Below are positions 35,274 to 59,181 of a stretch of DNA of 64,000 nt, piece after piece. Under the pieces are notes generated by a model that saw only the letters and a list, made by a program, of their open reading frames with translations, was not told the DNA's origin and ran no database searches. Within the stretch, counting starts at the first letter, position 1. Each line of letters begins with the position of its first letter. The stretch is taken from assembly GCA_001931875.2 (NCBI GenBank), contig MSJH02000812.1, positions 434,001 to 498,000 of the forward strand, read 5' to 3'. Source of the stretch: Byssochlamys sp. IMV 00236. Lineage: Eukaryota > Ascomycota > Eurotiomycetes > Eurotiales > Thermoascaceae. A program made the position numbers and the translations under genes.

Positions 35274-36838
35274 ATGTTTGCAGACGTACAACCCGGTCCG
35301 AAGGACCCTATGTTTGACCTGAAAAAGCTGGCTGACGACGACATTTCCCCGCGAAAGATCGACTTGGGAGTAGGTGTGTACCGTAACGAGGAGGGGGGCT
35401 ACCACGAACTTCAAGCAATTAAAAAGGTGTGCATATGATCACCTCGCATTCCTAGCATCTTTTATCTGACATATTATATCGATCAGGCCAAGAAGATCCT
35501 AAATGAGACCAATCCGGGACACGATGTAAGTTGTCATATTCCAACGGTCCCCCGCTATACTGACTGTGATGGCTCTGACATAACCACAGTATGAGCTTAC
35601 TACTGGCAATCCATCCTTTTTGAATGATGCAGCCGTATTGATGTTTGGAGAAAACAGCAAGGCTCTTAAGACTAAAAAGGTATCTACAGAGTGTCAATGT
35701 TTCTAAGACTAAATCTACCGTACTAATAGCCACAGATTGCTTCCGTACAAACCATTTCCGGCACAGGAGCCTGCCACTTGGCAGCATTGTTTCTTCGACG
35801 TTGCAAAGCATTCGCTCAGAGTGTCGTCTACGTGGGTACTCCAGCTTGGGGCAACTACGAACCTCTACTCAGACTTGTTGGCTTTGAAGTTCAAAAATAC
35901 ACTTACTATGACCCGCAAACGCATGCGGTGAACTTAAAAAACCTCCTTGACACCGTGGCCAATGCCCCTCAAAAAAGTATATTCATTCTTCAGGGATGTT
36001 GCCACAATCCAACAGGAGCGGACCTCAGTCAGGAGCAGTGGAGGTTGCTTGCAGATGCCATGGAGAAAGCAGATGTGTTCCCGCTCTTCGATGTCGCCTA
36101 CCAGGGCCTCGGTGCGTCTCCCGACAACGACGCCTATGGAATTCAACTATTCGTCGAGAAGGGATTTGAGATGGTAGTATGCCAATCCTTCTCGAAGAAC
36201 TTTGGTCTTTATGGTGAACGATGTGGGGTTCTACATGTTGTCACAGACGAGGAGACAATCTGTGCAAATGTCTATGACCAGCTCCGTTCCCTGATCAGAT
36301 GGGAATTCTCATCGTCGCCTGCGTATGGCTCCCGACTGGTGAATATCGTTCTGGGAGATCCGGATCTCAGAGAAGAATGGTTTGTTGCTCAAAATATGTG
36401 TTAGAAGGGGCGTTTTTCAAAGCTAACTTTTAGATAGGCTCAAGGAGTTATCGACTATGAGAAATCGACTCGTCGATAATCGAAGGAAGCTCTACCATAA
36501 TCTAGTACATGTGCATAAGGTATGTTCGAAGAACTTAGGGCAGACTTCAGAATCTATACTGACCATTCTCAGACACCAGGAAGTTGGGAAGCCCTTCTTA
36601 CAACCACTGGTCTATTTTGGTATTGTCCATTTTCCTGCTCTGCTAGACTACGGGCCATGCTAACTCTATGCGCAGCTATCTACCTCTCGCGAAAGAGGAA
36701 ATCATCAAGTTAAGAGAAAGGTTTCATATCTATCTACCAGACAATGGGCGTGTAAATGTCGCTGGTCTTAACCCGACGAATTTGGGCTCCGTTGCTTCGG
36801 CTATCAATGAGGTTGTGAGAGATGCTACTAAGCTCTGA
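35274..36838 (+). CDS. Aspartate aminotransferase, class I
   Basis: Seven exons: 35274-35426, 35487-35525, 35590-35679, 35736-36379, 36438-36519, 36573-36619 and 36676-36838; 405 residues. This PLP enzyme exchanges the amino group between aspartate and 2-oxoglutarate. In hydroxyproline breakdown, aspartate aminotransferase is also the enzyme that turns 4-hydroxyglutamate into 4-hydroxy-2-oxoglutarate. Motifs: KIDLGVGVYRNEEG, CCHNPTGADLSQEQW, and the PLP lysine in CQSFSKNFGLYGERCG. The C-terminus reads RVNVAGLNPTNLGSVASAIN. The N-terminus has no presequence, so a cytosolic enzyme is likely. The exon 6-7 splice (donor GTATTG at 36620) gives GLFCYLPLAKEEI. It is the leftmost gene of the proposed proline/hydroxyproline cluster, which favours the catabolic role over general amino-acid metabolism. 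Confidence 0.92.
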
Positions 36839-37304
36839 GGCCGGATCATGAGCCAATGTTAGAGCTGGAAGGTTCCCTAATGCCTAGAAGAGTAGTTAAC
36901 CATGGAAAACTATTTTGCTTGACGGCCCGCGCTCGATGTAGACCTACGGCTCCTGGACCCGGAGGTCTGTGAGTTTGTAGCCTATCTGTCAATTGCTTTT
37001 GCAACCTTGAAGAGTATAGTCATTCAATACCGAAGGGTCCATCTCATCCATCCAATGGGATCATATCCGGGATGTCTGCCGGTCATGGTATATCAGTCAC
37101 GCGTCCTCGATTGAGTACCGGAACAGTTCCCGACACAGCAAAATAGTAAGCGTGTACACCATAGCATAAGGTAGAACGCGAAAATAATATCATGGATTTA
37201 AAAGGCTATGTTTTCTGACAGGTCTCTCAGTCAAATAGGACTACAAGTGAGACTGAGAAAGCGTCTAGACGAACCCCCCATCACACTACATTATACAACA
37301 CAAT
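36839..37304. promoter_or_regulatory. Intergenic, aldolase promoter
   Basis: About 465 bases between two plus-strand genes; carries one CGG-N8-CCG element at 37068-37081. Confidence 0.55.
37068..37081. promoter_or_regulatory. Palindromic CGG-N8-CCG element, aldolase promoter
   Basis: Reads cCGG-GATGTCTG-CCGg, about 224 bases upstream of the aldolase start. Confidence 0.55.
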
Positions 37305-38305
37305 ATGGCTGTTCCCATTCCTCCTCCTTTCGGAATTTATCCCCCAGTTGTTACATTTTTCAACGAAGACGAGACGGTAGACTACAATGCATTTTCGAAG
37401 CATCTTGGAAGGCTTCTAGACGGCGGCGTTACGGGCCTCGTTATCCATGGGAGCAACGGAGAAGCCTCCCATCTTTTGCACGAAGAGCGCGCGGAGATGA
37501 TTCGGGCGGCACGAAGAATTGCGGATCAGCGAAAGAAGTCAACTGTGATCATTGCAGGGTGCAGTGCACCTAGTGTTCGTGAAACGTTGCTCTTTATCGA
37601 AGAGGCGAAGCAAACTGGGGCGGATTATGCATTGGTTCTTCCGCCTAGTTTTTGGCCTGCTGTCATGACAAAGCCTGTGATAAGATCTTTTTACATTGAT
37701 GTAAGGATCTATTTCCCAAATTGTATGTACATTTCGCGCCATCATCACTGACAATATACATCTTATAGGTCGCTGCAAAGTCACCACTTCCGATTATAAT
37801 TTACAACTTCCCCGTTGTAAGCGGCGGCCTCGACCTAGATTCCGATCTTATCACCGACATCGCAACTTCATCCCCAAACATTGTGGGAGTGAAGCTCAGC
37901 TGCGGAAATGTAGGAAAAGTAGCAAGACTATCCTCATCTTTCGACCGCGGCAGATTCGCTCCCTTCGGAGGAAAGGCAGACTTTCTTCTTCCCGGCCTCA
38001 TTGCAGGATCGCATGGCGCAATCGCGGTTCTTGCGAATCTTACCCCCAAGGCTCTTTCGAAGGTGATCAGTCTTTATGACGAAGGAAATGTAGCTGAGGC
38101 GAAAGAACTTCAAGCAAAACTGTCTCATGCCGATTGGACTTTGAGCACGTTGGGGGTTTCTGGTACGAAGTTGGCAACGCAGAAGTTTTTTGGGTACGGT
38201 GATCCGAAGACGAGGACTCCTTTTGTGACTGTCGGAAAAGACGCTATTGGCGTGAAGGCGCTCGAAAAGTTACAGGCGGTCATTGATGTGGAGAATGGGA
38301 TTTAA
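37305..38305 (+). CDS. DapA-superfamily aldolase, candidate 4-hydroxy-2-oxoglutarate aldolase
   Basis: Two exons (37305-37700, 37769-38305), 310 residues. Class I aldolases of this family form a Schiff base with pyruvate-type substrates. The family block VTGLVIHGSNGEASHLLHEE is present. The barrel Tyr lies in PIIIYNFPVVSGG (about residue 143), and the Schiff-base Lys in NIVGVKLSCGNVGK (about 173). The YNFP and KLSCGN motifs are also found in fungal 2-keto-3-deoxy-L-galactonate aldolases (GaaC type), so sequence alone does not fix the substrate. Next to an aspartate aminotransferase and proline-type dehydrogenases, cleavage of 4-hydroxy-2-oxoglutarate to pyruvate and glyoxylate is the best inference. 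A pyrroline-4-hydroxy-2-carboxylate deaminase, also of this superfamily, is the alternative. Confidence 0.8.
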
Positions 38306-38600: not shown

Positions 38601-39947
38601 CTAGAGCTTAGCACGAGGTGTAGTGGCCAAATCTGAACTCGAGCCTGTCCTCCACGCAACAGTGTCACCCGGCTTTGACTCCTTCCATTTCCATCTGGAT
38701 ACTCTCTGCTGGCCATCCACCAGGAGCTTCATCGCAAGGCCACCCATGACGGGTAACATCTTAAAGCCGTGCCCTGAGTCCCCGGAGAGGATTGCGAGTG
38801 ATCTTTCCGTTTCTGGAACATAGTCTATCACAAAATTATAATCATCGCTATCTGCAAACCAGCACAGATGATTGTCGATGAGGGGTCTGTCAGCGAGATG
38901 GGGCAACGCCTCACGTAGCAGTCTTCTGGATGCCTCTTCATCCTCTTTCAAGATAAAGTCGGAATCTGCGAGTCTCGACGGTGGTAGAGAGATTCCAGTA
39001 GAGCCGGAGGAATTGGTATATCCCCCTCCCATGTGACAGACTTTCAGTTTATTTGTGGCCAGGTCAGGCTCAAAGAAGAAACCGATATCGCGCACGTTGA
39101 TAACCGGAATTCCTCGGAGCTTTTCTGTTTCCTCCTGACTGAGCTGAATGTGGGAGACACCCCAACACCTCGCTGTTATCTGAGACGTGGCAGACGGTAT
39201 TATCCTCACTGCATTCGCACCAACGGCCACGATAGTCGTGGCCGCATGGTAGCGCACGTCACCTTTTGTCCTCGCGCCGATACAGCGACGGGTCCCAGGC
39301 GCGAAGAGGAGTTCAGCAACCTCACCTTCGTGAGGTCCAAGGCGGAACGAGACTCCTTTCTGGAGACAATCTTCATAAACTGATTTCATTGCATCCGCGG
39401 CGTGAGCGTATCCGGCCAGAGAATTGAGATAGCCGCTCCAACCTTTCACGGGCCCAGAAAGTGCAGGTATCAATTTCTTGATTGCAGAGCTATCAGGACA
39501 TGGCTGTATCTTGTCCCGAACTTCGGGGTGCCCTGAAACAGAAGCTAGATACTTTTGCAATATATCCCGCGATATCTTCGGTGCTGACCCAGAGGTAACA
39601 TTTAGAAATCCGACCTGGTGAAAGTATGGCTTGTACAGAGGATCTTCCTGCCATTTCTTTATGGCTTCCTGAGCGGAGAATGTCAGTTCTGGCTCTTTTA
39701 TATTAGGATTAAAGTGTGAGTAAATGCTTACCAATGTCAACGCAGTGTAGAACGAGTCTGCGTACTCGGGACGCACGATTTTGTTAAGATCGTAGCCTGC
39801 TGAGAAGCGACTTGGAATCTGGCCGTCTTTTTCCAGAACGGTGATATTTGTATAGCCTGCTGATGCCAGCTGATGGGCTGTGGCTAGACCAAAGACACCA
39901 GCACCGACAACAAGAACAGGATCATTCTTTTTGTGCTCGGAAGTCAT
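38601..39947 (-). CDS. FAD-dependent amine oxidoreductase (DAO family, sarcosine/amadoriase-like)
   Basis: Two exons on the minus strand (39947-39732, 39668-38601), 427 residues. The 63-base intron is a stop-free multiple of three, but GTAAGC to CAG borders and the family alignment argue that it is removed. The N-terminal dinucleotide fold reads VLVVGAGVFGLATAHQLA. The C-terminal part has HLCWFADSDDYNFVIDYVP and LSGDSGHGFKMLPVMGGLA, as in monomeric sarcosine oxidases and fructosyl amino-acid oxidases; the Cys at about 341 is at the place that binds FAD covalently in those enzymes. The substrate cannot be read from sequence. Co-location suggests a secondary or cyclic amino acid such as a D-hydroxyproline or pipecolate. 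It ends in AKL, a plausible peroxisomal PTS1 signal. Confidence 0.78.
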   Translation of the reverse strand: MTSEHKKNDPVLVVGAGVFGLATAHQLASAGYTNITVLEKDGQIPSRFSAGYDLNKIVRPEYADSFYTALTLVSIYSHFNPNIKEPELTFSAQEAIKKWQEDPLYKPYFHQVGFLNVTSGSAPKISRDILQKYLASVSGHPEVRDKIQPCPDSSAIKKLIPALSGPVKGWSGYLNSLAGYAHAADAMKSVYEDCLQKGVSFRLGPHEGEVAELLFAPGTRRCIGARTKGDVRYHAATTIVAVGANAVRIIPSATSQITARCWGVSHIQLSQEETEKLRGIPVINVRDIGFFFEPDLATNKLKVCHMGGGYTNSSGSTGISLPPSRLADSDFILKEDEEASRRLLREALPHLADRPLIDNHLCWFADSDDYNFVIDYVPETERSLAILSGDSGHGFKMLPVMGGLAMKLLVDGQQRVSRWKWKESKPGDTVAWRTGSSSDLATTPRAKL

Positions 39948-40694
39948 GATTATGGGAGTGTTCTAATTCGGGTGCTCGCTGATACAAGATAACGAATGAT
40001 AGCTTCTAATATATCTACTATTGGATCTTGAATATATTCGCGGAATCAATAACTTTATAAGCAATACCTAGGAGCTCCTGTACTAATCATACGATAACCT
40101 ACTCATCGGCAGCCATACATTGCAAGGGATCTCCAGCTTGCCATTGCATTCATGACCGCCTGCATCCTGCGAAGTCGGTCGGGAGGATTCCCGGTGTGGT
40201 TACCCGCGGCTGTAGATAAGCTGTATGCTATAACTAGGTAGGTATTGATCGGAATCCCTACCGATGATCGTGATACGGAATTGATACCCTAGATAGGCAG
40301 TTTCTTAAAAGATTCTACGGATAGCATAACAGGAAAAAATTAGGTACATGTTGGAATATTTGCCACTCGACATGAGTGCACGACCATATCACAGCTGCTA
40401 GAGAGGAAAGGACTGGTCAAGGGCTTGTATTCTCTAGGGGGGAGCGAGCTCCAGCTCCAGCAACTATCTAGCTATATGCTGTGTTTTGGGCTAGGCCCTT
40501 CCATCCAAGGTTGCCTACTAGGCCATAGGGCCCAAGACCAGTAATGCGAACGTATCTTTCCGTGAGAGCCTTCCGTGATTGCACTTTGCTATATGTCTAA
40601 TTTCTAGTGTAGCATCGTCCTAGCGACCTCGACCCTGGTTTATACATTAGCTGAAGATATTCAAGAGCAAAGAAAAGTCAAGCAAGATCATAAC
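39948..40694. promoter_or_regulatory. Intergenic with FAD oxidase promoter
   Basis: About 750 bases; promoter of the FAD oxidase and 3' end of the carrier gene. It has one CGG-N8-CCG element at 40180-40193. No gene seen. Confidence 0.55.
40180..40193. promoter_or_regulatory. Palindromic CGG-N8-CCG element, FAD oxidase promoter
   Basis: Reads tCGG-GAGGATTC-CCGg, about 233 bases upstream of the FAD oxidase start on the minus strand. Confidence 0.55.
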
Positions 40695-41884
40695 TTACAT
40701 CGTAAATGTCCCTGCCGATACTGGAATTGCACGGACTAGCGTTGGTGTCAATCCACGGTAAAAGCCTTTAAATCCGTAGGCATTGAAAGTCTGGCGAACC
40801 GCATCAAGGGTGGTGCGATATTGTTGCTTCTCGCCGAAGCTATCTGTTTGCATTTTGCTCTTGATGATGTCCATCGGATAGTTTGTTATCCAGAGGATTT
40901 CACCGACGAGAGCTCCGCAACAAGCAATCTGCCATTTGGGAAGTTCGTCCCGTTTCTTATTTTGCACTTTGGAAATCTCCTGAACGAAAACCTCAAAGCA
41001 AGAGAACCAAATCCCATAGCTGCCGAACTCCCGCAACATAGTCGCCGTAAGTCCTCGATATAGCCCCCGCATCCCAGCTTGTCTGACTATCTTTCGTACA
41101 CAATCCGCTGTTCCTGAGTAAAGGCGGCTGGACTTCTCATGAGTTTGAGTCTGGAGTCGTATCCTGACGTGTTCGGTAGGGCCTGAGACGAAACTGTTCA
41201 CAACACCGGCCATTCCTCCTGCTAGATAAATTCGTCCCAGACTGGTCTTTCCGTCAATGCTGGTATGGCTATCGTCGCCAACAGTGTCAAAGAATTGACT
41301 AAAAGCGTGGAAGGACGAATACACTATGCTAATCTTTAGTTTGGTTTTGTGAGAGAGTACTCATCAGATAATCGGACAGACCGGACATACACAAGCCCCT
41401 ACTCCAACCAGCGGAGCAGCGGATCCCTTATAGTTAATGAACGATGTTACTAACATTCCCCCCCCCAAAAAAAAGACAGAAGCGTCGATATTGGAGCTTT
41501 CAATAACACACCTTGTAGAAAGCTAGAGGGCCTTCAAGAGACCAGATATTGCGTGCAACAGAGAACATGTCCCCATTTCCTCTAGTCTGCATCCGCACCT
41601 TCATAATATCTACCGGCCATGAAGGTTAGGGTTTGATGACAATGGAAAGATATAAGAAATATCACAAACCAAATGGTTGCCCTGATGACCGTTAATGATT
41701 GTACACTGTAAATATTGTATACTTTATCTCCGTGGCAGTAGAGCTTTGCATGGATATTAATCCTGAACATACCAATCATAACCTGTGTGACTCCCCCTAC
41801 AATACCAATAACCATTTCTTTAGCTGTTTCTGCGACATGGTCTCTCGGGATTTCCAAGGTAGGAACCGAATCAGTTACCTCCAT
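40695..41884 (-). CDS. Mitochondrial carrier family protein (SLC25; Ymc1/amino-acid carrier-like)
   Basis: Five exons on the minus strand: 41884-41773, 41681-41670, 41609-41512, 41426-41393 and 41323-40695; 294 residues. It moves a metabolite across the inner mitochondrial membrane. The three repeats are visible: GQPFDIMKVRMQT (needs a 12-base microexon), GPTEHVRIRLQTQ and NYPMDIIKSKMQT, with matching GLYRGLTATMLRE and GFYRGLTPTLVRA segments. The second-repeat motif with Glu instead of Asp is typical of Ymc1/SLC25A29-type amino-acid and acylcarnitine carriers. The exon 4 donor is ambiguous (GTGTAT at 41392 restores the frame). A final GTAAGT at 40696 could add an intron but would end in the same place. 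In this cluster it may carry proline, hydroxyproline or glutamate. Confidence 0.78.
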
Positions 41885-42354
41885 ACTGTCGGCGAAGAAT
41901 CTCTATAGACACCGGTTCACAATGAAATATATTTAGCATTCCCTGTTCGAGGTTGTTCTTCCAGAGTAGTTGACACTGACCGTTGGGCCCATTACCTAGT
42001 TCAATTGACTGTCTTGTTAAGTCCAGGAATTCGGTAGAAGATCCGATCTTCATCCGCTAGTCTGAAGGATAGCATGCAAACGTCAAGTTCGGTTTAGAAT
42101 ATCCCCAGTATCTTATCTGTGGTCAATTCATTGTAGATTCCGGGAGTAAACCCGGTGTTCCAGTGGAAAACCCTGATAACACTGTAACAACCAAATTGCT
42201 CACCCCACATTACTGTTTAACGGCGGCATTATTTATGATAGCACTCCTCTTCAAAGTCAGGAATATTAAGCTGCTATACTACAGTATGTCCTCAAAACTA
42301 GGCCAAGGGACCTTGACTGTCACCAGCGTCTGTGTCTTTACAACGACGTCGAAA
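41885..42354. promoter_or_regulatory. Divergent promoter of carrier and proline dehydrogenase
   Basis: About 470 bases with one CGG-N8-CCG element at 42141-42154, placed to serve both genes. Short frames here are not supported. Confidence 0.55.
42141..42154. promoter_or_regulatory. Palindromic CGG-N8-CCG element, carrier/dehydrogenase promoter
   Basis: Reads cCGG-GAGTAAAC-CCGg and extends to a longer inverted repeat CCGGG-N6-CCCGG (42140-42155). About 200 bases from the dehydrogenase start and 257 from the carrier start. Confidence 0.6.
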
Positions 42355-43790
42355 ATGACATTAAAACCAACACGAAGTTGCTACAGAATCGTGCAACACC
42401 AGATACGTTGCAAGTCTACTATAGGAGTATCTCTGGGCAAAGCCCCCGCACCTACATTACGACCTCCACTTGCGGTTCTTCCTACAGGTACACTTCTTCG
42501 TTCGCTCTTGGTTTCCACCATCTCGTCGAACCGATATCTGTTGCTCCCATCACTTTCGATCCTCGCATACCTTTCTGATCCGCGGAGAGGCGCTCTTTTA
42601 AGCGTTGATAGGAATCCAGTCCTTCATGCAATACTTAAGAAGACGTTTTACGAACAGTTTTGCGCCGGAGAAAATGCGGAAGAGACGAAGAACAGCATGG
42701 ACAAGCTCAAACGACTAGGCATTCGCGGGATTATTCTCACCTATGCACGAGAGACCGTCTTTGATCACAAGACAAACAAAGCGCAGCCTCAAGGACACAT
42801 ATTAAGCGAACAGAGTGTTGCCGTCGATTACTGTCCTAATATTGAAGCCTGGCGAAAGGGGACACTTGAAACCATTGACCTTATTAGTGAAGGGGATTAT
42901 TTGGCCCTCAAGTATGGATCTTCCGTTCTCTTGCATTTGAATACAGATTAACTGGCTGCAGATTGAGTGGCACTGGCCCAGTGGCTACTAAAGCTTTCAG
43001 TGCCGGTGAATTACCACCGCAGCAAATGATGAATGCCTTGGATGAAATATGCGTTCGTTCAAGGGACCGCAAAGTGCAAATCCTAGTCGATGCTGAGTCT
43101 CAGCATTTTCAGCGAGGAATCGCTCGCGTGACTCTTGAACTTATGCGCAAGTATAACCGTGATGGATACGCTCTTGTCTACAATACCTACCAGGCCTACC
43201 TGAAGAGCACCCCGAAACTCATTGAAGAGCATCTCGAAGCTGCCAGCAAGGAAGGGTTCACTCTGGGTCTCAAGCTAGTGAGAGGAGCATACATTGCTTC
43301 TGATGAACGATCTTTGATTCATAACACCAAGCTGGATACTGATAATGCCTACAATGAGATTGCCCAAGGAGCTCTCAAGCAACATATTGGAAAGTTCGGT
43401 GGGGTTGATGGCCGTCCATTTCCTTCACTGAATCTGTTCTTGGCGAGTCATAACAAAGAAAGTCTTTTTGCGGCCTACGAGTTATACCGTCAACGCCTAA
43501 ACTCGAATTTGCCTACCGTTCCCGTTCGATTTGGTCAACTCCATGGCATGTCGGACGAGGTCAGCTTCTCGCTCATACAGCTGAAAGATGTTTATGGTGA
43601 CAACATCGGCCCGGAAGTCTACAAATGTTCTACATGGGGCAGCATGCGTGAGTGCATGGCATATCTGATACGACGAGCGATAGAAAACAGGGATGCTGTA
43701 TCGAGGGCAAACGACGAATATTCTGCATTGAAAGCGGAGTTGAGGAGGAGATTGGGCTTTTCTTCGTGGCTTTCCTCTGCGAGTCACTAG
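42355..43790 (+). CDS. Proline/hydroxyproline dehydrogenase (PRODH family)
   Basis: Two exons (42355-42911, 42962-43790), 461 residues. A mitochondrial FAD enzyme that oxidises proline to P5C, or hydroxyproline to 3-hydroxy-P5C, and passes electrons to quinone. The N-terminus is rich in Arg, Ser and Thr without acids, like a presequence. Family motifs: ILVDAESQHFQRGIARVTLE, LVYNTYQAYLKSTP, LGLKLVRGAYIASDE, LFLASHNKES, GQLHGMSDEVSFSL and the substrate-binding YLIRRAIENRDAV. In KCSTWGSMRECMAYLIRR the residue aligned with E. coli PutA Tyr540 is Cys (about 408); human hydroxyproline dehydrogenase PRODH2 has Ser there. The ATG at 42355 (context GAAAATGAC) is preferred over an upstream in-frame ATG at 42163, whose extension is not presequence-like. 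Confidence 0.88.
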
Positions 43791-44213
43791 ACGCTTGAAA
43801 GGGCATATAGTTATGCAGCTGCTTTTTGGATATCAGAGATCAATGTCAAGAAACATCGTACTTTTGCTGAAGTCACCAGTGCAAATTGGAGAGTATTCTT
43901 TAACATAACATCAAATGAAGCCATCAATCCTCTCCTTCATTTATCGCGGACGGCCTACATCGTGATACATCCCCGCTCTACCCCGCAGGAGTAAGCGATC
44001 CACATCTACGGAGAGCGTTCGGGTTGAAGATATCCTGCTGTATCTATGTCGGAACCCCTTCCGTAGTCTCTGTGGATCTTAGGTATGGATGTTTGAAATA
44101 CCGCCGAACAGCCTCTGCCAACTCGTTGTTTCGTGATTATGTATATATTTGAATCACAGATGGGTTTCGTTTGGAAGACCTGGAATAGCCAGTTTACGCA
44201 GGAATAGATCAGA
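43791..44213. promoter_or_regulatory. Intergenic, P5C reductase promoter
   Basis: About 420 bases with one CGG-N8-CCG element at 44050-44063. No gene seen. Confidence 0.55.
44050..44063. promoter_or_regulatory. Palindromic CGG-N8-CCG element, P5C reductase promoter
   Basis: Reads tCGG-AACCCCTT-CCGt, about 150 bases upstream of the P5C reductase start. Confidence 0.5.
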
Positions 44214-46542: not shown

Positions 46543-46556
46543 CGGAACGCTGTCCG
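46543..46556. promoter_or_regulatory. Palindromic CGG-N8-CCG element (distal to P5C dehydrogenase)
   Basis: Reads tCGG-AACGCTGT-CCGc; 220 bases from the orphan membrane protein start. Confidence 0.5.
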
Positions 46557-49230: not shown

Positions 49231-51766
49231 CTACCATATGTTATTTTGCGCCAGAGCTTGAGACACCCATTCCGCGTCTCCACTCTCAATCGAGTTGGCC
49301 ACGGCCAGTATCTGTGCTGTCGTAAACCCTTCGTTGAAAGCATACTGTTCCTGGTTTTCTGAGCTGAAGTTATTTTCTGTAAATTGCATTGGGTGTTCTT
49401 GTGCAAGCGCGGGACCTGGTTGGTTAACAGCACCGCTATCTCGAGAAACGGCAACATTGGTAGCCGGTATAGGCCAGGACGATGATAAACGATCCAATAC
49501 GCCCTCCACTTGTTGTAGCTCAGACTTTCTGAACTTCGCAATCAAATTTCCGCTTGATATCATGTCATCGATGATGGAGTGTGACTTTTGAAGCCATGGT
49601 GACCGGGTCTCGAGAAGCCGAGTATCAATCACGGGCGCAAGCAAAAGCACCATTGCTGATACGAATACAGACTCAAGATCGAAGTAGAGGAATGTCTCTG
49701 AGCGAGAATGTGACGTAAGTATAGATATACATAAATATATAGTTTGAAAACTACACCTTACCTAGAAGACCCTGTGTTTGGAGGTTTCCGAGGATATTGA
49801 TCATTTGAATGGAAGAGTCGATGCACATCTGCAGCACATTCCGAACTGTCGGAGAAGAGCTTAGAGAATCGGCAAGAGTCTCTGGAGAGGATATTCGTAT
49901 CTTAAGGAATGAGAACAACAGCGGTCTTGTGGCAAGGACAATGCACTGAACGCAGGGTTAGTAAGCATCAAGGAATGGATATGCCATACGCAGACCTGGT
50001 GGTAAAGAAGATGTATATACGCTGCCAGCCTGGATATACCGCTAGCGGAGTTTTCCAGTGGAATAGGTAACATTCGTCGCATCTCATCGGCTAGACCTGC
50101 TACGCTTGCGAGTGCTGACTTGGTGCTGAGCAAAAAGCTCGTGTTGAGTCGTCCGTCAGGACCATAGATAGCTTATTAGATTAGCCAGTGGATAAGTAGA
50201 AGGCCAGTTATTTTACATACTCTCGTTTATCCCTGCTATCACCCGAGACAACTTTATTTGCATATTTAGAGCCGCCGTCCGCTGTGCTGAGACCATAGAC
50301 GTTGGTGCTTGGTTATGCAGATGATCGTCGCGTATCGATTGCGGTAGGCCGAATAAGGATGTCATTTCTCTGTCCAGTATGTATACCGTCCACCAGATCT
50401 TTCGACACCTCTGCACTAGACGCTCTCCCAAGTATTGAACTGGCATATCTGTATGCATTCCATATCCTAACGCCATACGCATTGCTTGCCCGATCTAAAG
50501 GTATGAGATGCGTCATTATTTCGTTTCTGAAATGCAATCCAGGTAACTTACATATTGGTGGGACGAATGCCTAAAGTCCAAGGACTGAAGGTATAAAGCG
50601 ATGCAGCAAAGGATTTCCGTTGATATAACTGGTTCCTTGCAGAGAACGCTTACGTCTGGCAGAAGTTGAAGAGCGAGGACAAAGAATTCGGCACCAGGAG
50701 GTTTTCTGCCGTCGTTCTTCCGCAACACAAATGCTTTTCCAAACGCGAGAATGACGAGAAAGTGGATATACCAGAGGTTCGTTTTAGATGTTCGACTGTT
50801 AGAGTCCGAATAAAAATCGTAAAGTGACCTCATAAACTCCTCTTCATCGAAAAGGTGGAACAGTTGACCGCAATGGAATTTGACAGAGTTGATTAAGTAA
50901 ATAGCGTGATCAGTAGTTGGAATAGCAGGTTCCTCGGGAATGGAAGTGCGGAATCCATCCCATCCTAAATCGTAAGCAGAACCGTCAAACAATAGTGTCT
51001 CTGTCGGGAGGGGTTCTTGGTAAATGTGCTCATAAACCATGGCTAAAACTCGTCTCGCAAATGACCAGTTTGACGAAGTTCCAAGATAAACTGGATTTCT
51101 GTTAGCTTTTTGCGTTCCATTACTGCAGGAGAAGCATGTTCACTGACAGGCCCTTCCGTTTGCTGCTGACATGTAGGCTGACGGTCCTGTAGAAAGTGGA
51201 TTTGTTAAACCTGAGGGGATATTTTCCATTTCCTTTTCTGACGGAGCATCTCGGTCCTCGATTTGCGCTTGTTCCTCGTCCTGGATTGAACCTGCCTCCA
51301 TATCTGCTGACAAAGGTCAGTAGATATCTCAAGGGATGTTAGAAAGCGAACAATAAGTATCTCAGCCGCCTACCATCTTCCAGAATTGTGTCTTGTTCTG
51401 GGTCTGTAACGTCCGGACTGGACGGAGTATGGCCTTTGCTCATTCGTCTCAAAGACACAATCTGTCGCTGGAGATCGATAATGTATCTAGACCACGCACT
51501 TAGCAAGTTTCCACTCTCGAATTCTTTCTCCCGTATTACCCTCTGGTCACCATCATTTTCTGATCCCGGTCATCGAAGATGCATGGCAGGTTTCGCTTGC
51601 TGCACCCACTGCACGGTTGCGATCCCGAACACTTGATCTTTTGCCTTCGACATCGTGTGCACCTGAACAGGCATTTTAGCAAGAGTTCCCATTCCTATCG
51701 CGGCGGGTTTACATGCGCATTAGAAGATCTTTTTCCTACTCTGCGTTTTTCCTTCCCAGATTCCAT
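49231..51766 (-). CDS. Zn(II)2Cys6 transcription factor, PrnA-like; likely cluster regulator
   Basis: Nine exons on the minus strand: 51766-51717, 51662-51540, 51486-51374, 51306-51148, 51090-50552, 50494-50221, 50171-49996, 49945-49762 and 49697-49231; 694 residues, all phases closing. The binuclear zinc cluster starts at residue 18: CTRCRRQKIKCSG, then PCSGCSKRNLPC, giving the six Cys. A linker and a coiled coil (YIIDLQRQIVSLRRM) follow, then the fungal-specific middle homology region with FYLGTSSNWSFARRVL and GYGMHTDMPVQYLGERLVQR followed by CRKIWWTVYILDREMTSLFG. Exon 1 must end with a GC donor (GCATGT) to give SSNACTRC; the alternative start MRMCTRC uses a normal GTAAAC donor. It sits next to the permease and has its own CGG-N8-CCG site, consistent with autoregulation. 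Confidence 0.85.
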
Positions 51767-52420
51767 TTGTCTGAACAGTCTCTTCAATGTCTGGATAGCA
51801 TGAGCGATGAGTGTTCCTCTCACTTGGTCACTGCGGCGTGTACAGGCTACTCCTAAGTACCATCGCTACCTACCTAATCTTTCCATCGGTTCGAGGGGAA
51901 ACCCGGGGCCATTATCCTTGTCTAGCCCATTATGGTAATCAAATCGCAGCGCGTTAAGCTTTAATAATGCACTTATGGAATATATACCATAGTCAAATGC
52001 GGGGTAGCAGTTCTCAGAATTGAATTGGTCCTGTGGGATGGAGACCGATGATTAAGTGAATCGACTCGAAGAACGCCGCCGAGAAATGCCAGAATTCCCG
52101 TCTTTTGCCGCTCCAGTTTAGTTAGGTACTTACACCCGATAAGAGACCGGATGCTCTTCCGACCATTTGAGATAATTATATACGAGCTAGCGACAACTAA
52201 CTACCTAACTACCTACTTGTTAGTTCTCGCATATCAATAGATAGAAGAATGATAGCGAGAACAACCAATAGTAATGCTATGCATATCTCAAGAACCTATG
52301 ATATGACCAGGATCAGATCGATAACTGTCTCGCTTCCTATCTACTATCTATCCCACACATGGGACTAGAACAGATCCTATCTGTGCCTCCGTCTTACCTA
52401 CTACTTACTAACTATTTTAA
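51767..52420. promoter_or_regulatory. Promoter of the transcription factor; permease 3' end
   Basis: About 650 bases with one CGG-N8-CCG element at 52148-52161 and many CTAC/ACTA-rich repeats near 52195-52220. No gene seen. Confidence 0.55.
52148..52161. promoter_or_regulatory. Palindromic CGG-N8-CCG element, regulator promoter
   Basis: Reads cCGG-ATGCTCTT-CCGa, about 382 bases upstream of the transcription factor start. Confidence 0.5.
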
Positions 52421-54035
52421 TTATACAGAATTGGAGTTATCGGCGCAGGACCAGGCAGCGGATCCTCCCGATTCTCTGTAAGTATCAATAATGTTGACAA
52501 TAGACCCATAAGTACCACCAACCATCAAGAACGTTCCAGAGAGTACAACGAAAACACTCCAGCAAACCATCAAAGCCCATTTGCGGTCAGTGGCCAGCTT
52601 TCCGCGGCTCCAGTTATCGTATAGCCACATGCAGCCCATCGGCTGAAATGCCATGAGTGTACCCAGTAGAGCACCCACTAGTGAGACAAGACTCCCAAAG
52701 ACAGGGATCGCACTGGCAATGATATAGGCAGTTACCGCGATACCAAATGTACAGCCCAACCAAGTTGTCCAGTGTACTACCGTATTGGCGACAAGATGCC
52801 TGGATCCTTGCAATATGCGAACAAAGATATACTTGGCTGGCAACTGCAGAAAACAATTAGCAAATCTTCCTGGGTAGCATCCACTGGAGTGCTTAGTTAC
52901 ATGAATTACAAGCGTGGTTGTGACGATTAGACCGGGTAGAGCAAAACCGTAGGCAACCTTCTTTACCATAACACCAGCGGAGCCAAGGGCGGGCGAAGCA
53001 ACATAAGACCCGCAATAATAGTAGACAACACAGCCAATTGTGATATATATGGCCGTTACACCACCCTGGCATAGTAGTAGTGATCGAGTATATTTGCGAG
53101 GGTCGCGCATTTCAGATACGATGGCGAAGAATGCCGGTGTTCCCGCGTACGCGAAGACGATAGAGGACACAGCAGACATGGCATCGCTGAAGCTAGGGTT
53201 GTTGACAATTTTATAGTCTGATTTCCAGGGACCACTCTGTGGCGCAGCGCTGGGACGATCTTGTATACCAACAGCAATGGTCACAATGAGGACTGTGAAG
53301 CATGTTAGATCATAGCTGGAGACTTATAATGGATCAACCCACTAGCAGTAAGGATACAGGTGACGCCAACCCACGCAAGCCAACTGATGCGGCCGAGCGT
53401 ACGAATACTACCCAGGACGAAGCTTACGGCAGTGGCAATGGCAACGAAGACAGCTGTACATGTACCATGGGTAGAAACAGCATTGAGCCCGATCGATATA
53501 CCTAGGATACCAGATCCAGCTACGAAGGTCCAATCTGTATGGTCAGAAAATAGTCTCTTTCGTTGCAGGAATGACCTACAAAGACAGAACGAGAATCCAA
53601 GCATCACACGGCCAATGTGACCAAACATTAATCCACCGGCATCGTCGATACTGTAGACTGTGGGATGGAGAAGCTTGAAAACTCCGATCATGTAGTCCGA
53701 CCACGTCGTGATAACCGCAACAACTAACAAGATGATGACCCCTGGAACGAGGCCCAATATGTCAAAGGCACTTGGAATTGAGAGGACACCGAGGCCAATC
53801 TGGGTCTTGAGCATCAGAACGGTTGTTCCGAGCCATCCAACCTGCAAGGTCATCAATTCGTGCACGAAAATGGATCTTGGAAAGAGCATACGTTACGATA
53901 GTTGGGGCCGTCGTCGGTGATATCCCCAAAAACAGCATCGTGAGTATAACTCGTGCCATTGTGAATTTCTCCGATCTGTGAGGGAACTGTAGCTAACTCC
54001 TCGGGGCCAACTTTAGCCTTGGACATGTCAGACAT
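52421..54035 (-). CDS. AAAP-family amino acid permease
   Basis: Five exons on the minus strand (54035-53892, 53841-53580, 53534-53343, 53292-52901, 52843-52421), 470 residues. A plasma-membrane symporter of the amino acid/auxin permease family, expected to import neutral amino acids. The core starts at residue 49: VGWLGTTVLMLKTQIGLGVL, then SIPSAFDILGLVPGVI. Further helices include WTFVAGSGILGISIGLNAVS, AMSAVSSIVFAYAGTPAFFA and SLVSLVGALLGTLMAFQPMG; about ten to eleven helices in all. The 45-base intron at 53535-53579 and the 57-base intron at 52844-52900 are stop-free multiples of three; removing them gives CLYWTFVAGSG and VIHLPAKYIFVRIL as in relatives. PrnB of A. nidulans is from the different AAT/APC family, so this cluster uses another transporter type. 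Hydroxyproline or proline uptake is inferred from context. Confidence 0.88.
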
Positions 54036-54281
54036 TGTGCAGAAGATGTTATGAATAACCATCAATCCGGGCAATGGTTGTGTGGGGAGATCGAGTCTTT
54101 AAATTCAACTGAGGCACCCAACTTTCTCTAATAAAGAGGCCTGTCTGCCATTGTTGGGTTTCATAATCCCCGAAGGCCTGAAGGGTGACGCCACCAATCT
54201 GTGTTATCGCTAATCTGATACTGTTACTAGAACCACTTTATCGGTTATGTTCTCTCCTCTCCTAGCTCAGGATTAGATACC

Positions 54282-54295
54282 CGGAGGCCTTGCCG
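54282..54295. promoter_or_regulatory. Palindromic CGG-N8-CCG element, permease promoter (proximal)
   Basis: Reads cCGG-AGGCCTTG-CCGa, 247 bases upstream of the permease start. Confidence 0.55.
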
Positions 54296-54681
54296 ACAAC
54301 GGAGGCAACGATCAAGCTTCCACGAGCAATTCCTCGGGAAGACGCCGCCATTAGACCGGAACCTCAGGCGACGTGTCACTTGTTAATGTTCTGTTGCTTC
54401 CCCGGATTCTTCGAATCTAGTTTGGGCATATGATCTTGGGAAGTACTGGATTGAACAGGCCGTAATGTCCAATTCAAAGTTATCACCGACGGAGACTGTT
54501 GGCCAGTCGTAATATAACTACATGTAACTCTATATGCCATGCAAGTAGTAGTAGCTTTAGGAGAGCGCATAAAGTCACGATGCGAAATCCTGTAACATCC
54601 CTACCAGTGAAGCAATACTCCATACTTCACATCCTTAATAAGATTACTGTTGATTTATTATTCTGAAGTTATCAGTCCTTT

Positions 54682-54695
54682 CGGGAGGCCTTCCG
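54682..54695. promoter_or_regulatory. Palindromic CGG-N8-CCG element, permease promoter (distal)
   Basis: Reads tCGG-GAGGCCTT-CCGg, nearly palindromic throughout and sharing the AGGCCTT core with the proximal site; 647 bases upstream of the permease start. Confidence 0.5.
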
Positions 54696-56215
54696 GAGTC
54701 TAACGATGTGAAATAACGTCAGATGCATCTGCATAAGTCCAACATTATTAAACTGCGAAGGATTCTTCATAGCTATAATCAGTTAATATGCGGCATTGTT
54801 GTCACTTGCTAGGGATGGATAACCCGGATCTATCAATTCGCACTTTGGACATACCTATGCGGGGTACCTAGTCTTTGTGTTACACATGAGACACCTCGGA
54901 TATTTCATTCTGCAGATGGCCATAGATGCTTGTATAACTATACCACTGCCACGGATATTGCCGACCTGCAGAAACATTGTTGGATATGTGCACTGATCGG
55001 AACAATTGACTTCTGATCAAGCCCCAGATTTATTCTGTTGGGTCTGGGGTTGCAATGCGGGGGAACGGGCATGTCAATCACTGCTTCTTACGGCAAGCGG
55101 AGGGATAAGCTAATGATGGCACTGTTGAGAGACTGGCTGAGGAGTGGGACATTTCGCCATGGGCACAGAGAAGCTGAGCAGGACCTCTTGCTCTGTCTGA
55201 AGCTCATTTCAGTGGGGGTGAAGTTACAGCTACCTGTCGCGATACAGGATACATTCTGAGGATATCGCGCATCCGTGTGTACCTGAGACAATGGAGTCGA
55301 AGCCCACCAATTATAAGGTGGAGGTTGCGCGGTTGCAGTCTTCGCTCATTGATAGCGACCGTGAACAGCAATTAACAAGGAGCCTTCTTTTCAAGCTTAA
55401 CATGAGGTATGCATGGGAACTTATACAACGGCTGCCCAAAATGCAAGAGTTACATAGTATTTATATTCGCAAAACCGTTACTCAACAACGCCTAGTAGCA
55501 GTCAAGGTTGACATCTATTAAGTCTTCGCTTGGCCTGTGAATGGACGAGTAACTAATGTCTGGTTAAAGGTTGCTCAAACGAGTCTTCTGAAGTTGTTAA
55601 CATTTCGGACTATTTGCTCCCCATTAGCTTACCAGGGTACACAACACTGTATGTACAGAGCTATCCAGACGAAATATGAAACAACGACTGTTCCGTTCTC
55701 GATCGAATGTGTGGGCTCTCTTCTATTGGTATGGCTGTCTCGGTTGTATTCCGTATCTAGTCGATTCTTGGACGAAGGATATAGAAGACGGATACGGTGA
55801 CAGGCTTCTGCTAACACTTGGCACCGCAGTGGTTCTCTTGAAGTACATGCATTAACGTACCTCATACTCTGCCGCAGTCTCTGCTATGTTTGATTTTGGC
55901 ATTTTCGGGTGTTTTCTTTGACCAAGAGGATATTCTGTCCTCGTTAAGATAGTCTCATTAATTTGTGCCTTCTGACGAAGTAAACGGGATAAACTGAACA
56001 GAGGTTGTTTGAACGGGGTTTAAATGTACCCTATTATATACCCTCAAGAAGCTTCTAGAGAAATATTCTACTTCAACTGCAAGAATGGATCAACATGATA
56101 ATTTATTGTCCAATGCCATATCGAAGAGCTTTCGCTTTCGTATGCTGCTGAATCTTCATATTGAGTGGTTCCCCTTTCTTTTCTTTTTTTTATATATTAG
56201 TTGTTTCCATCTGAA

Positions 56216-57361
56216 CTAAAAGTCCTGGACAGAAAGCCCCTTGCCTCGCCGACTGGCGAGTGATAATATCGCTGTACCCGCTGCGAGATCAGTCATACTC
56301 ACGCCGACGCTCTTGTATATAACAAATCCCTTTCCTAACCAGTTTTCCAATTGCTCATTATCCGAACGATCGTCCTTCAAGTTTATGACCTCGCCGACTT
56401 CTACCAGCTGCTCCGGTTTAAGTTGACTTTGAATTAACTCGCCGGAGCTCGTTCGTGCAACTTCACGATCATCCACTATCACAGCTCCACCGGCACCGCC
56501 TCTTGGGTTATACGCGGAGTTTGATGTGACGGCATCCCGTAACAGTTCAGGATCCAACTCAATCATGCTAGGCTGCCAGGAACCGATGCTCGATACATAA
56601 CAACCACCTGTTTCAGAGAGTTGTCTCCGAAGAAAACGAGCGGGAAACAAAGGAACTTTCGACGGTGTCGTACAGAAAACAACATGAGCAGTAGCAAGCA
56701 CGTCTTCTAACTGCCTCTGGAACTCGGCGTCTGTAATATCGAGAGAATCCAGCTGAACAGAAGACTTCCAACGTGACTGATTCTCTTCTCTTATCTGAGA
56801 AACCAACGATCGAGACCTCTCAGCAGATCGATTCACGATAGTAATCTGTTTGATCTCGTCTCCTCTGAGTGCCAAGGCAAGGCGAATATGCCATAAGGCT
56901 TGCTTCCCGGCCCCAAAGACTACAATTTTAGCAGTCCTTTCTCGCCATGAGAATGGGATCATAACAGAAAGCGACGTGCGGTGAGCTGTGATCTCGTCGG
57001 CGTTGATGATTCCCCTGGGCAGGCCGTCCTTGTTGCACAGAATCAAGAGCCCGTGCAGAGTAGGTTTATTGGCATTGGTAGTGTTCTCCTGCAAAGAATC
57101 GGTTTGTTCTCTCGACGTACTTGGATCAACGATGATCTTCGTTCCCACATATTCTGGCGAGGTGAAGGCTCTGAATAGAGTCTTGACGCCGTTTGAACGG
57201 GCCACAACGGCTGGTTCTGGCTGAAAGCTTCGTTCGTCAGAGGTGGAAAAGCTCAGCAGAGACGTGGCGAGAGTATTGAGGAATTCACAAATCTCATCTT
57301 TTGAGAGGCTGATTAAGATTTCTTGCACGATTTTATCGCCTAGGACGGTGCAGTTTTCCAT
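56216..57361 (-). CDS. Ornithine cyclodeaminase/mu-crystallin family protein (candidate pyrroline-2-carboxylate reductase)
   Basis: One exon, 381 residues from the ATG at 57361. The family covers ornithine cyclodeaminases, alanine dehydrogenases and NAD(P)H ketimine reductases. The N-terminal half has EPAVVARSNGVKTLFRAFTS and the substrate region ADEITAHRTSLSVMIPFSW. The Rossmann fold reads KIVVFGAGKQALWHIRLALA. Further motifs are IGSWQPSMIELDPELLRDAV, and YKSVGVSMTDLAAGTAI near the end. As far as I recall, A. nidulans prnX, a prn-cluster gene of unclear role, also belongs to this family. Here it is divergent from a proline racemase-family gene. In bacteria that pairing reduces pyrroline-2-carboxylate, made from trans-3-hydroxyproline, to proline. 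That role is an inference. An upstream in-frame extension begins only at a TTG. Confidence 0.85.
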   Translation of the reverse strand: MENCTVLGDKIVQEILISLSKDEICEFLNTLATSLLSFSTSDERSFQPEPAVVARSNGVKTLFRAFTSPEYVGTKIIVDPSTSREQTDSLQENTTNANKPTLHGLLILCNKDGLPRGIINADEITAHRTSLSVMIPFSWRERTAKIVVFGAGKQALWHIRLALALRGDEIKQITIVNRSAERSRSLVSQIREENQSRWKSSVQLDSLDITDAEFQRQLEDVLATAHVVFCTTPSKVPLFPARFLRRQLSETGGCYVSSIGSWQPSMIELDPELLRDAVTSNSAYNPRGGAGGAVIVDDREVARTSSGELIQSQLKPEQLVEVGEVINLKDDRSDNEQLENWLGKGFVIYKSVGVSMTDLAAGTAILSLASRRGKGLSVQDF

Positions 57362-57570: not shown

Positions 57571-57584
57571 CGGCGGCGTTTCCG
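57571..57584. promoter_or_regulatory. Palindromic CGG-N8-CCG element
   Basis: Reads tCGG-CGGCGTTT-CCGa, 210 bases upstream of the cyclodeaminase-like start. Confidence 0.5.
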
Positions 57585-57711
57585 ACTTTCATTTAATCGA
57601 CACACGTCCCAACTGAGACAGCCAACAGAAGTCATTAATATGATCGTATCTTATAATATCTACTTAGCAAGGAGGGGGAAGTCTCTATGTGGACTGGTTG
57701 GTTGTCATCGT

Positions 57712-57727
57712 CCGAGTCCATACTCGG
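57712..57727. promoter_or_regulatory. Perfect inverted repeat CCGAGT-N4-ACTCGG
   Basis: A 6-base perfect inverted repeat around CCAT. Its outer triplets form CCG-N10-CGG, an everted arrangement some Zn(II)2Cys6 dimers can bind. Function not known. Confidence 0.4.
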
Positions 57728-57989
57728 AGTGGTAGGCGCAGAAGATCTACCGCAGGGTATATAGGGACAGCGAATTCAAAATCTATAAACATTTAATATC
57801 CATGGACGACATTACCTGTCAACTTTATCGGGAATGTTACCGTTACTGAATGGATACTTATCGTATTTGCGCGGAAGTTGTACCTATATCGGTATCTCTC
57901 CCCATATACGCATAGATACGGTGCCCCGCAAGGCAACATAAAAGAAAATAGGAAACGCGCAAAGCGACATTTCATCTTTCTAGTTACTT

Positions 57990-58022: not shown

Positions 58023-58109
58023 TTTCGTCCTTGCATGTTCAAAGATAATAAATTCCATATACTTCTCAACGGCAACAGCAACAGTCCGTTTGATCCCTCA
58101 GACATCAAA

Positions 58110-58118
58110 CCGGCCCGG
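58110..58118. promoter_or_regulatory. CCGG-N-CCGG site, PrnA-type consensus
   Basis: CCGGCCCGG lies 17 bases before the racemase-like start. CCGG-N-CCGG is a published PrnA target form in A. nidulans. The position is very close to the start codon, so it may lie in the leader. Confidence 0.4.
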
Positions 58119-58134
58119 TTGATATCTCAGCGGA

Positions 58135-59181
58135 ATGGGTATCAGTCGAACAATTAGCATAGTTGGCTGCCACTGCGCGGGCGAAGTTGGCGATGTCATC
58201 GTTGGAGGTGTTCTCGACCCCCCTGGATGTTCAACGATGTATGAAAAACTGGTCTACTTCCGAGACAAAGCTGATGATATTCGTCAACTTCTCCTGAATG
58301 AGCCCCGAGGCCGGCCGGCCATGTGCACGAACCTCGTCCTCCCGCCATGCAATCCCAAAGCAGATGCCGGGTTTCTTATCATGGAGAGTGAAGAATACCC
58401 ACCAATGTCGGGTGGTAATACTATTTGCACAGCCACTGTGCTGCTGGAAACGGGGATGGTGCCAATGAAAGAGCCGATTACCAGGATGCTACTAGATACG
58501 GCTGCAGGTCCTGTAGGCATCACTGCCGAATGTGAGAATGGGAAGTGCAGGGCCGTTGCTTTTGACAACGTACCTGCGTTCGTATTCGCTCTAGATTATA
58601 AGGTCCGAGTACCTGGTCTTGGAATGATTTCTGTGGATATTGCCTGGGGCGGCATGATTTATGTAGTTGTCGACGCAGCGTCCGTTGGTCTTCGTATCAA
58701 CAACAGAAATGGTCCGAAACTTATTGACATCGGCGAGAGGATCAAACAAGCTGTACAAAACGCATACACTCCTGTTCATCCGGAAAACCCGGGGATTCAA
58801 GGAGTCTCTATTCTCGAGTTTACGGAACCTCTGCGGCAGGAACCATCAGGAGAAAAAGTAGCTGTTAACACAGTTGTGGTAGCTCCTGGAAGGTTTGATC
58901 GTTGCCCATGTGGCACTGGGAGCTGTGCTAGAATGGCGATTTTACATGCAAGGGGACAGCTGGAAGTTGGAGAAAAGTTTCAGCATCGCAGCATCATTGG
59001 GAGCAGCTTCGAGTGTCATATACGAGGTACGACGAAGGTTGGAGAATATGATGCAATCCTCCCAAGTGTGAAAGGAAGTGCTTGGGTCACAGGGTATAAG
59101 CAGATGTTCTTGGATTCTACGGATCCTTTTCCTCTTGGATTCAGGGTGGGAGATCAATGGCATATGTCAGATGCTGCTTGA
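58135..59181 (+). CDS. Proline racemase-family enzyme of the Ser/Cys type (hydroxyproline epimerase or dehydratase)
   Basis: One exon, 348 residues. The family contains proline racemases, 4-hydroxyproline 2-epimerases and trans-3-hydroxyproline dehydratases. The start ISIVGCHCAGEVGDVIVGGV and the block HRSIIGSSFECHIRG are typical. Racemases and epimerases use two Cys. Here the first position is Ser92 in PPMSGGNTICTATVLLETG and the second is Cys259 in DRCPCGTGSCARMAILHARG. Human trans-3-hydroxyproline dehydratase has Cys then Thr. Bacterial Ser/Cys members linked to hydroxyproline exist, so the exact reaction (dehydration or epimerisation) is open. The divergent ketimine-reductase-like neighbour favours dehydration of 3-hydroxyproline to pyrroline-2-carboxylate; the FAD oxidase in the cluster would fit epimerisation of 4-hydroxyproline. 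The absence of introns and the closeness to bacterial forms raise the possibility of transfer. Confidence 0.88.
   Translation: MGISRTISIVGCHCAGEVGDVIVGGVLDPPGCSTMYEKLVYFRDKADDIRQLLLNEPRGRPAMCTNLVLPPCNPKADAGFLIMESEEYPPMSGGNTICTATVLLETGMVPMKEPITRMLLDTAAGPVGITAECENGKCRAVAFDNVPAFVFALDYKVRVPGLGMISVDIAWGGMIYVVVDAASVGLRINNRNGPKLIDIGERIKQAVQNAYTPVHPENPGIQGVSILEFTEPLRQEPSGEKVAVNTVVVAPGRFDRCPCGTGSCARMAILHARGQLEVGEKFQHRSIIGSSFECHIRGTTKVGEYDAILPSVKGSAWVTGYKQMFLDSTDPFPLGFRVGDQWHMSDAA

Follow-up and report, generated by a model that had tools for sequence, protein, structure and literature searches.

Which compound would a fungus break down with the twelve adjacent genes at positions 35274-59181 of a 64,000-nucleotide stretch of Byssochlamys sp. 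IMV 00236 DNA (contig MSJH02000812.1; the whole stretch is called the window here), and do these genes act together? Hydroxyproline occurs in collagen and in the cell walls of plants, and mammals degrade 4-hydroxyproline via PRODH2, ALDH4A1, aspartate aminotransferase and HOGA1. An original prediction had placed here a single cluster, larger than the known prn cluster, that combines this mammalian route with a bacterial recovery of proline from trans-3-hydroxyproline. The twelve-gene cluster is real. Judged by what it encodes, it is most likely for hydroxyproline and would be new as a combination, not as chemistry. With moderate confidence, we read the block as a single regulon whose products would follow the mammalian route from 4-hydroxyproline to pyruvate and glyoxylate, a predicted side branch returning other isomers to it.

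Splice sites were picked by hand and the models then translated. None of the twelve gene models has an internal stop, the introns (42-163 bases) have GT...AG ends, and the first gene's start and the last gene's end coincide with 35274 and 59181. The genes are:

35274-36838, plus strand: aspartate aminotransferase-type enzyme; 405 amino acids (aa), 7 exons; start not presequence-like
37305-38305, plus strand: DHDPS-superfamily aldolase; 310 aa, 2 exons; HOGA residue set
38601-39947, minus strand: flavin adenine dinucleotide (FAD) oxidase of the fructosyl-amino-acid/L-pipecolate/sarcosine oxidase family; 427 aa, exons 39947-39732 and 39668-38604 plus stop; C-terminus AKL
40604-41884, minus strand: mitochondrial carrier (Mito_carr); 303 aa, 5 exons
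42355-43790, plus strand: PRODH-family dehydrogenase; 461 aa, 2 exons; presequence-like N-terminus
44214-45179, plus strand: pyrroline-5-carboxylate (P5C) reductase; 304 aa, 2 exons; TIGR00112 above cut-off
45353-46324, minus strand: orphan protein; 305 aa, 2 exons; no Pfam family
47003-48923, plus strand: P5C dehydrogenase (P5CDH; TIGR01236); 582 aa, 4 exons; presequence-like N-terminus
49231-51720, minus strand: Zn(II)2Cys6 factor with a Fungal_trans domain; 684 aa, 9 exons; candidate reader of CGG-N8-CCG
52421-54035, minus strand: AAAP-type amino acid permease (Aa_trans); 470 aa, 5 exons
56216-57361, minus strand: OCD/mu-crystallin family reductase; 381 aa plus stop, single exon
58135-59181, plus strand: proline racemase-family protein; 348 aa, single exon; Ser92-Cys259 dyad

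Zn(II)2Cys6 factors often bind CGG dyads. We scanned the DNA upstream of the genes for pairs of CGG/CCG triplets in four arrangements at spacings of 0-20. The pattern CGG-N8-CCG occurs 18 times in the 7,380 bases of promoter-bearing intergenic DNA compared with 0.77 expected under a first-order Markov model, and in 1000 simulated sets the largest count over all 21 spacings was 6. An open scan of three-base dyads with gaps of 0-20 ranked the same pattern first of 69,040 (18 sites vs 1.18 expected), with several of the next-ranked dyads being shifted copies of it. It is present in 9/9 promoter-bearing intergenic regions, serving 12/12 genes, and in none of the three intergenic regions between convergent genes (778 bases in total). 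The sites, to which no strand is assigned, are:

35074-35141: two sites upstream of the aminotransferase (starts 35074, 35128)
37068-37132: two sites upstream of the aldolase (starts 37068, 37119)
40180-40263: two sites upstream of the FAD oxidase (starts 40180, 40250)
42032-42154: two sites between the divergent carrier and PRODH genes (starts 42032, 42141)
44050-44063: one site upstream of the P5C reductase
46543-46893: four sites between the divergent orphan and P5CDH genes (starts 46543, 46713, 46770, 46880)
52148-52161: one site upstream of the Zn(II)2Cys6 factor itself
54282-54695: two sites upstream of the permease (starts 54282, 54682)
57571-57842: two sites between the divergent OCD and racemase-family genes (starts 57571, 57829)

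Site centres lie 117-434 bases before the start codon for all 12 genes, and the partners in three divergent pairs have their sites in common. Over the whole window there are 32 sites, against 10.46 (standard deviation 2.81) in shuffles, and 0/100 shuffles reach 32. Elsewhere we counted 3 sites across the block's own gene bodies (16.8 kb), 10 to its left (34.2 kb) and 31 in a further 170 kb of DNA. A stricter core, CGGNANNNNTNCCG, has 7 sites in promoter-bearing regions (in 5/9 of them; expectation 0.07) and 434 in 47.4 Mb; built from the very sites scored, it was excluded as independent support. A candidate second regulon on contig C711, where aldolase and AAAP paralogues accompany 8 CGG-N8-CCG sites in 10 kb, was dropped, as by eye several of those sites lie inside long open frames and few look consensus-like.

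Synteny was judged from the locus tags and listed contigs of protein records from other fungi. In Paecilomyces variotii DTO166G4, the FAD oxidase (tag 1874) and the racemase-family protein (tag 1883) are one nine-gene step apart, just as here, with 569,749 bases given as the longest contig in each record. The clustering of the twelve genes exceeds chance, because CGG-N8-CCG stands upstream of all twelve and because this step recurs in P. variotii DTO166G4. The motif common to all 12 upstream regions strongly supports the single cluster that had been predicted. The twelve genes together likely form one regulon, in which the block's own Zn(II)2Cys6 factor would bind CGG-N8-CCG and switch on all 12 genes, its own included.

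What this regulon would degrade is indicated by its gene content and by specific residues. Pfam places eleven of the twelve proteins in the families that had been predicted (Aminotran_1_2, DHDPS, DAO, Pro_dh, P5CR_dimer, Aldedh, OCD_Mu_crystall, Pro_racemase, Aa_trans, Mito_carr and Zn_clus/Fungal_trans), while the orphan matches no Pfam family. The PRODH-family enzyme has cysteine at the position that we take to be residue 540 of E. coli PutA, in an alignment that is ungapped up to the conserved RR pair and weak overall (E 3.9e-05). Human hydroxyproline dehydrogenase (PRODH2) has serine there, as does PDB chain 3e2q, and the paralogues in this assembly have tyrosine (C820 and C462) or leucine (a prn-like copy on C838). 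The stretch C462:17001-37000, of 37% GC, holds the C462 gene, a divergent PRODH whose catalytic part is preceded by additional sequence, which would fit an assembly of mixed origin. In PutA it is Tyr540 that enforces proline over hydroxyproline, as cited in the available text of PMC3718742.

Human HOGA works with Lys196 (the Schiff-base lysine), Tyr168, Ser77 and the substrate-binding Asn78 and Ser198 and tolerates Tyr140 to Phe, according to the accessible part of PMC3188589. The window aldolase has all five of these residues (Ser77/Asn78/Tyr168/Lys196/Ser198, human numbering), which suggests a HOGA-type enzyme, and phenylalanine in place of Tyr140. The full set is present in 0/4 other DHDPS-family genes found in the assembly, all four of which have Thr at 198 and two Thr at 77.

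The aldolase residues also bear on a bacterial 4-hydroxyproline route, which draws on the same enzyme superfamilies and was not named in the original prediction. Here an epimerase, the FAD oxidase, a DHDPS-family deaminase and an aldehyde dehydrogenase would convert trans-4-hydroxy-L-proline to 2-oxoglutarate. The same four superfamilies mark bacterial 4-hydroxyproline epimerase (4HypE) pathways in the portion of the eLife 2014 study at hand, and the Ser-Cys dyad of the racemase-family protein is like that of epimerase 4LB0. For comparison we took 80 bacterial loci that carry relatives of the racemase-family protein. In 65 of them the gene caller picked up such genes, 67 in all, and 59 of the 67 have Ser-Cys; DHDPS relatives lie in 15 loci and an aldehyde dehydrogenase in 17 (BLAST) or 19 (clustering). 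However, none of these 15 DHDPS genes, which are presumably deaminases, has the full HOGA set (one is gapped at two positions). Asn78 is found in 0/15 (one gap), and position 198 is Glu or Phe in 8, Ser in 5, Thr in 1 and Val in 1, whereas the window aldolase has Asn78 and Ser198 like HOGA. The aldehyde dehydrogenase of the block is a P5CDH by TIGR01236 (724 bits, above the equivalog cut-off of 613.6) and scores 169.8 bits vs a cut-off of 770 for ketoglutarate-semialdehyde dehydrogenase. PRODH and the aminotransferase would be left without a role. BLAST with the window proteins, too weak to prove absence, found no OCD, FAD-oxidase or PRODH gene in the 80 loci. By these comparisons the bacterial route ranks below the mammalian one, and we consider it decidedly improbable.

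Two further enzymes of the block were assigned as follows. Of the aminotransferase's 405 residues, 4-400 align with mitochondrial aspartate aminotransferase (AAT), its top PDB match (308 bits); it is 30-50% alike to other AAT pieces in the assembly. P5C reductase passes TIGR00112 (210.6 bits, cut-off 196.75) and is 44% identical to another copy at C823. In the first 40 residues, PRODH and P5CDH have 7 basic/0 acidic and 6 basic/1 acidic residues, respectively. Because only these two have amphipathic, presequence-like starts, the aminotransferase and aldolase would act outside the matrix. Gene content, the PRODH cysteine and the HOGA residue set of the aldolase support the 4-hydroxyproline half of the prediction.

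Alternatively, the block could serve as an additional locus for the use of proline, pipecolate or some other cyclic imino acid, hydroxyproline not being specifically used. PRODH, P5CDH, P5C reductase and a relative of L-pipecolate/sarcosine oxidases suit general imino-acid use, and the OCD relatives include one named 'putative proline utilization protein'. However, a separate prn-like locus on contig C838 could already serve proline. Within ~12 kb it holds an OCD-family gene, a factor-like gene (32% over 90 residues to the window factor), a P450-like frame (by eye), a PRODH and an AA_permease-family gene, and a P5CDH lies ~45 kb beyond this group (stretches C838:50001-70000 and 100001-120000). 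The AT-rich stretch (22.6% GC) between the two pieces fits the two-part genome described for P. variotii in the available text of PMC6300479. The window and C838 copies are 61% identical for P5CDH, 29% for OCD and 37.5% for PRODH, and the window PRODH is 41% identical to the C820 copy. The prn-like stretch C838:50001-70000 holds one CGG-N8-CCG site. The motif common to all twelve block genes speaks against a general imino-acid locus, and the breakdown of proline or pipecolate offers no obvious use for a HOGA-type aldolase or a dedicated aminotransferase. Since the prn-like locus exists, the block is probably not for proline, and we regard general imino-acid use as improbable. The block is larger than the known prn cluster, as had been stated, but it is a second locus, with the prn-like locus on C838 besides.

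The racemase-family protein, the FAD oxidase and the OCD reductase bear on the fate of other isomers. The racemase-family protein is the sole Pro_racemase match found in the assembly. Its catalytic pair, Ser92-Cys259, recurs as Ser-Cys in 120/120 homologues (best 120 of 7,379) and is the dyad of epimerase structure PDB 4LB0, giving the two-base active site of an epimerase. In the consulted portion of eLife 2014, the Ser-Cys group is 4-hydroxyproline epimerase and a Ser-Thr structure is a dehydratase; the dehydratases of this family, in the published text available, have Cys-Thr or Ser-Thr pairs. These residues favour an epimerase, with dehydratase activity possible. The bacterial relatives (80 kept) are 47-56% identical, with Ancylobacter best. 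An old transfer of this gene from bacteria is possible on sequence similarity.

The original prediction had given these genes a different task. In a true trans-3-hydroxyproline branch, joined to the mammalian 4-hydroxyproline route, a racemase-family dehydratase would make pyrroline-2-carboxylate and the OCD enzyme would reduce it to proline, for which the proline-to-glutamate enzymes are encoded within the cluster. The closest solved relatives of the racemase-family protein (4K8L, 1TM0 and 4K7G) all have Thr at the second position in alignments, and a dehydratase is its best-scoring NCBIfam model; yet the score of 391.2 bits misses the cut-off of 550, and a further dehydratase score (246 bits) also misses its own. 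The OCD protein scores highest in NCBIfam with pyrroline-2-carboxylate reductases but reaches the cut-off of none of them (best 80.5 bits vs 266, NF005603). Ser-Cys in each of the best 120 homologues is at odds with the Cys-Thr or Ser-Thr of published dehydratases, and the FAD oxidase would be left unused. The trans-3-hydroxyproline half thus keeps its best-scoring model and loses the dyad and the cut-offs; we think it unlikely.

The FAD oxidase ends in AKL, a tripeptide like peroxisomal targeting signal 1 (PTS1). Among its best 120 homologues listed, 107 are 400-480 aa and 86 of these 107 end in a PTS1-like tripeptide. The OCD and racemase-family genes are divergent neighbours. Together, racemase, FAD oxidase and OCD reductase would form an isomer-salvage branch taking cis or D isomers back to the L form. 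A Xylaria curta relative of the OCD protein is listed with PF03820, the family of the sideroflexins; this may be a fusion or a merged gene model, and it hints at a partner in the mitochondrion.

In the 4-hydroxyproline pathway that we propose, the permease would import hydroxyproline and the carrier would move hydroxyproline or a product across the mitochondrial membrane. In the matrix, the PRODH-family enzyme would make 3-hydroxy-pyrroline-5-carboxylate and P5CDH would make 4-hydroxyglutamate. Outside the matrix, the aminotransferase would turn 4-hydroxyglutamate into 4-hydroxy-2-oxoglutarate, from which the aldolase would yield pyruvate and glyoxylate. The peroxisomal-type FAD oxidase and the OCD-family reductase would bring ring imino acids towards the L form by oxidation followed by re-reduction, and surplus pyrroline would be recycled by P5C reductase. 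We put forward tentatively the fullest version of this scheme, a complete eukaryotic hydroxyproline regulon in which one Zn(II)2Cys6 factor, reading CGG-N8-CCG, drives a mammalian-type 4-hydroxyproline route split between mitochondrion and cytosol, coupled to a peroxisome-linked inversion of D and cis isomers to L by Ser-Cys epimerase, FAD oxidase and ketimine reductase. If true, the inversion branch would show eukaryotes using a class of enzyme that has been linked so far to 4-hydroxyproline pathways of bacteria.

Several points weigh against a 4-hydroxyproline regulon with a salvage branch. The lack of tyrosine in PRODH does not by itself prove hydroxyproline use, because the human enzyme has serine and the prn-like paralogue leucine, and the PutA alignment behind the cysteine is the weak one given above. 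The prn-like locus stands on another contig of an assembly (47.4 Mb in 840 contigs) that may be mixed and may hold a second organism. The racemase-family protein misses the epimerase NCBIfam cut-offs (261.8/376, 158.1/450 and 112.1/442 bits), its top-scoring NCBIfam model is a dehydratase, and its nearest solved relatives belong to a group that the available part of eLife 2014 describes as functionally mixed. Family membership does not fix the substrate specificity predicted for the FAD oxidase, and P5C reductase and OCD reductase within a breakdown cluster would partly reverse the pathway. Finally, the full block is not universal among fungi. Racemase-family and OCD relatives are listed on contigs of unequal length in Aspergillus nanangensis, Exophiala dermatitidis and Cylindrodendrum hubeiense, as are racemase-family and FAD oxidase relatives in Xylogone, Aspergillus karnatakaensis and Neonectria ditissima, although paralogues may account for part of this.

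The predicted search for synteny in other Aspergillus genomes had presumed an Aspergillus setting, which is not borne out. Named proteins of P. variotii DTO strains match the racemase-family protein at 98-99% identity (over 76-90% of length), that of P. variotii No. 5 at 92%, and the FAD oxidase is 98.6% identical to a P. variotii DTO021C3 protein. These values place the source in P. variotii or a very close relative. In P. variotii No. 5, a contig of 215,557 bases is given in the OCD record as well as in the racemase-family one; in Penicillium angulare, the racemase-family and FAD oxidase records both list a 3.4 Mb contig. In Scytalidium lignicola, a carrier relative (58%) and a FAD oxidase relative (71%) are fused into a single gene model; those two genes are therefore neighbours there too, a sign that their adjacency is conserved in a distantly related lineage.

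Around the block we scanned eight open frames. Three had no Pfam match, and none of the five with a match belongs to amino-acid catabolism:

33595-34242, flank adjoining the block: PPP4R2
22059-23057, left flank: flavin-reductase-like protein
12030-15746, left flank: heavy-metal P-type ATPase with four HMA matches
Past the window's right end: DUF155 and C2H2 zinc finger proteins

The right-hand long frame in this check starts at the window's end. Because the Pfam-recognised flanking frames are unrelated to amino-acid catabolism, the block looks bounded. Within it, the longest intergenic stretch (54036-56218) measures 2.2 kb, and a thirteenth gene there was rejected, the open frames being at most 87 aa. 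The FAD oxidase as a single exon (448 aa) was ruled out by an in-frame 63-base GTAAGC...CTCAG intron, placed because the named P. variotii proteins lack the 21 residues matching those 63 bases. The orphan (45353-46324), called a membrane protein in the prediction, had zero Pfam matches even at E≤5; its structure, predicted from one sequence (262 residues of exon 2), reached a mean predicted local distance difference test (pLDDT) score of 35.6 and was discarded.

Among the open-access literature matches listed (titles and abstract starts, with subscription papers mostly outside), none describes a full fungal hydroxyproline gene set. Aspergillus fumigatus grows, slowly, on hydroxyproline as nitrogen source, according to the available text of PMC2526178. 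In Aspergillus niger, aconitase X lies near a putative trans-3-hydroxyproline dehydratase gene (PMC5144071), a published sign of fungal hydroxyproline gene grouping; the present assembly differs in having no aconitase X match over the Pfam cut-off (best 23.2 bits vs 31.5). The systems of trans-3-hydroxyproline dehydratase and pyrroline-2-carboxylate reductase resemble the block in its adjacent, divergent racemase-family and OCD-family genes, but the block has Ser-Cys in place of Cys-Thr or Ser-Thr and misses both NCBIfam cut-offs. With the bacterial 4-hydroxyproline epimerase pathway the block has in common racemase-family, FAD oxidase, DHDPS-family and aldehyde dehydrogenase genes and a Ser-Cys pair as in PDB 4LB0, whereas its aldehyde dehydrogenase is a P5CDH and its aldolase residues are unlike those of DHDPS genes at bacterial loci.

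Like the A. nidulans prn cluster (prnA, prnX, prnD, prnB, prnC), the block groups a Zn(II)2Cys6 factor, PRODH, P5CDH and a permease, and its OCD gene may answer to prnX, which is presumably an OCD-family gene. It differs in seven further genes and in its permease, which is of the AAAP type (Aa_trans) and not YAT like prnB; the AA_permease-family gene sits at C838, not in the block. The block motif, CGG-N8-CCG, also differs from the PrnA sites CCGG-N-CCGG or CCGG-N6/7-CCGG given in the accessible part of PMC5983819, and it is the C838 locus that resembles the A. nidulans prn set as described there.

The proposed function parallels the mammalian 4-hydroxyproline route, all four enzyme types of which are in the block, the aldolase with the five functional HOGA residues. 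The locus could serve as a model, in a fungus, of the human pathway that underlies primary hyperoxaluria, supplying named genes, a regulator and a DNA motif open to direct testing. Unlike the mammalian genes, those of the block are clustered under one common motif; its aminotransferase and aldolase lack presequence-like starts, its PRODH has cysteine in place of serine at the specificity position, and it adds racemase, OCD, FAD-oxidase and P5C reductase genes.

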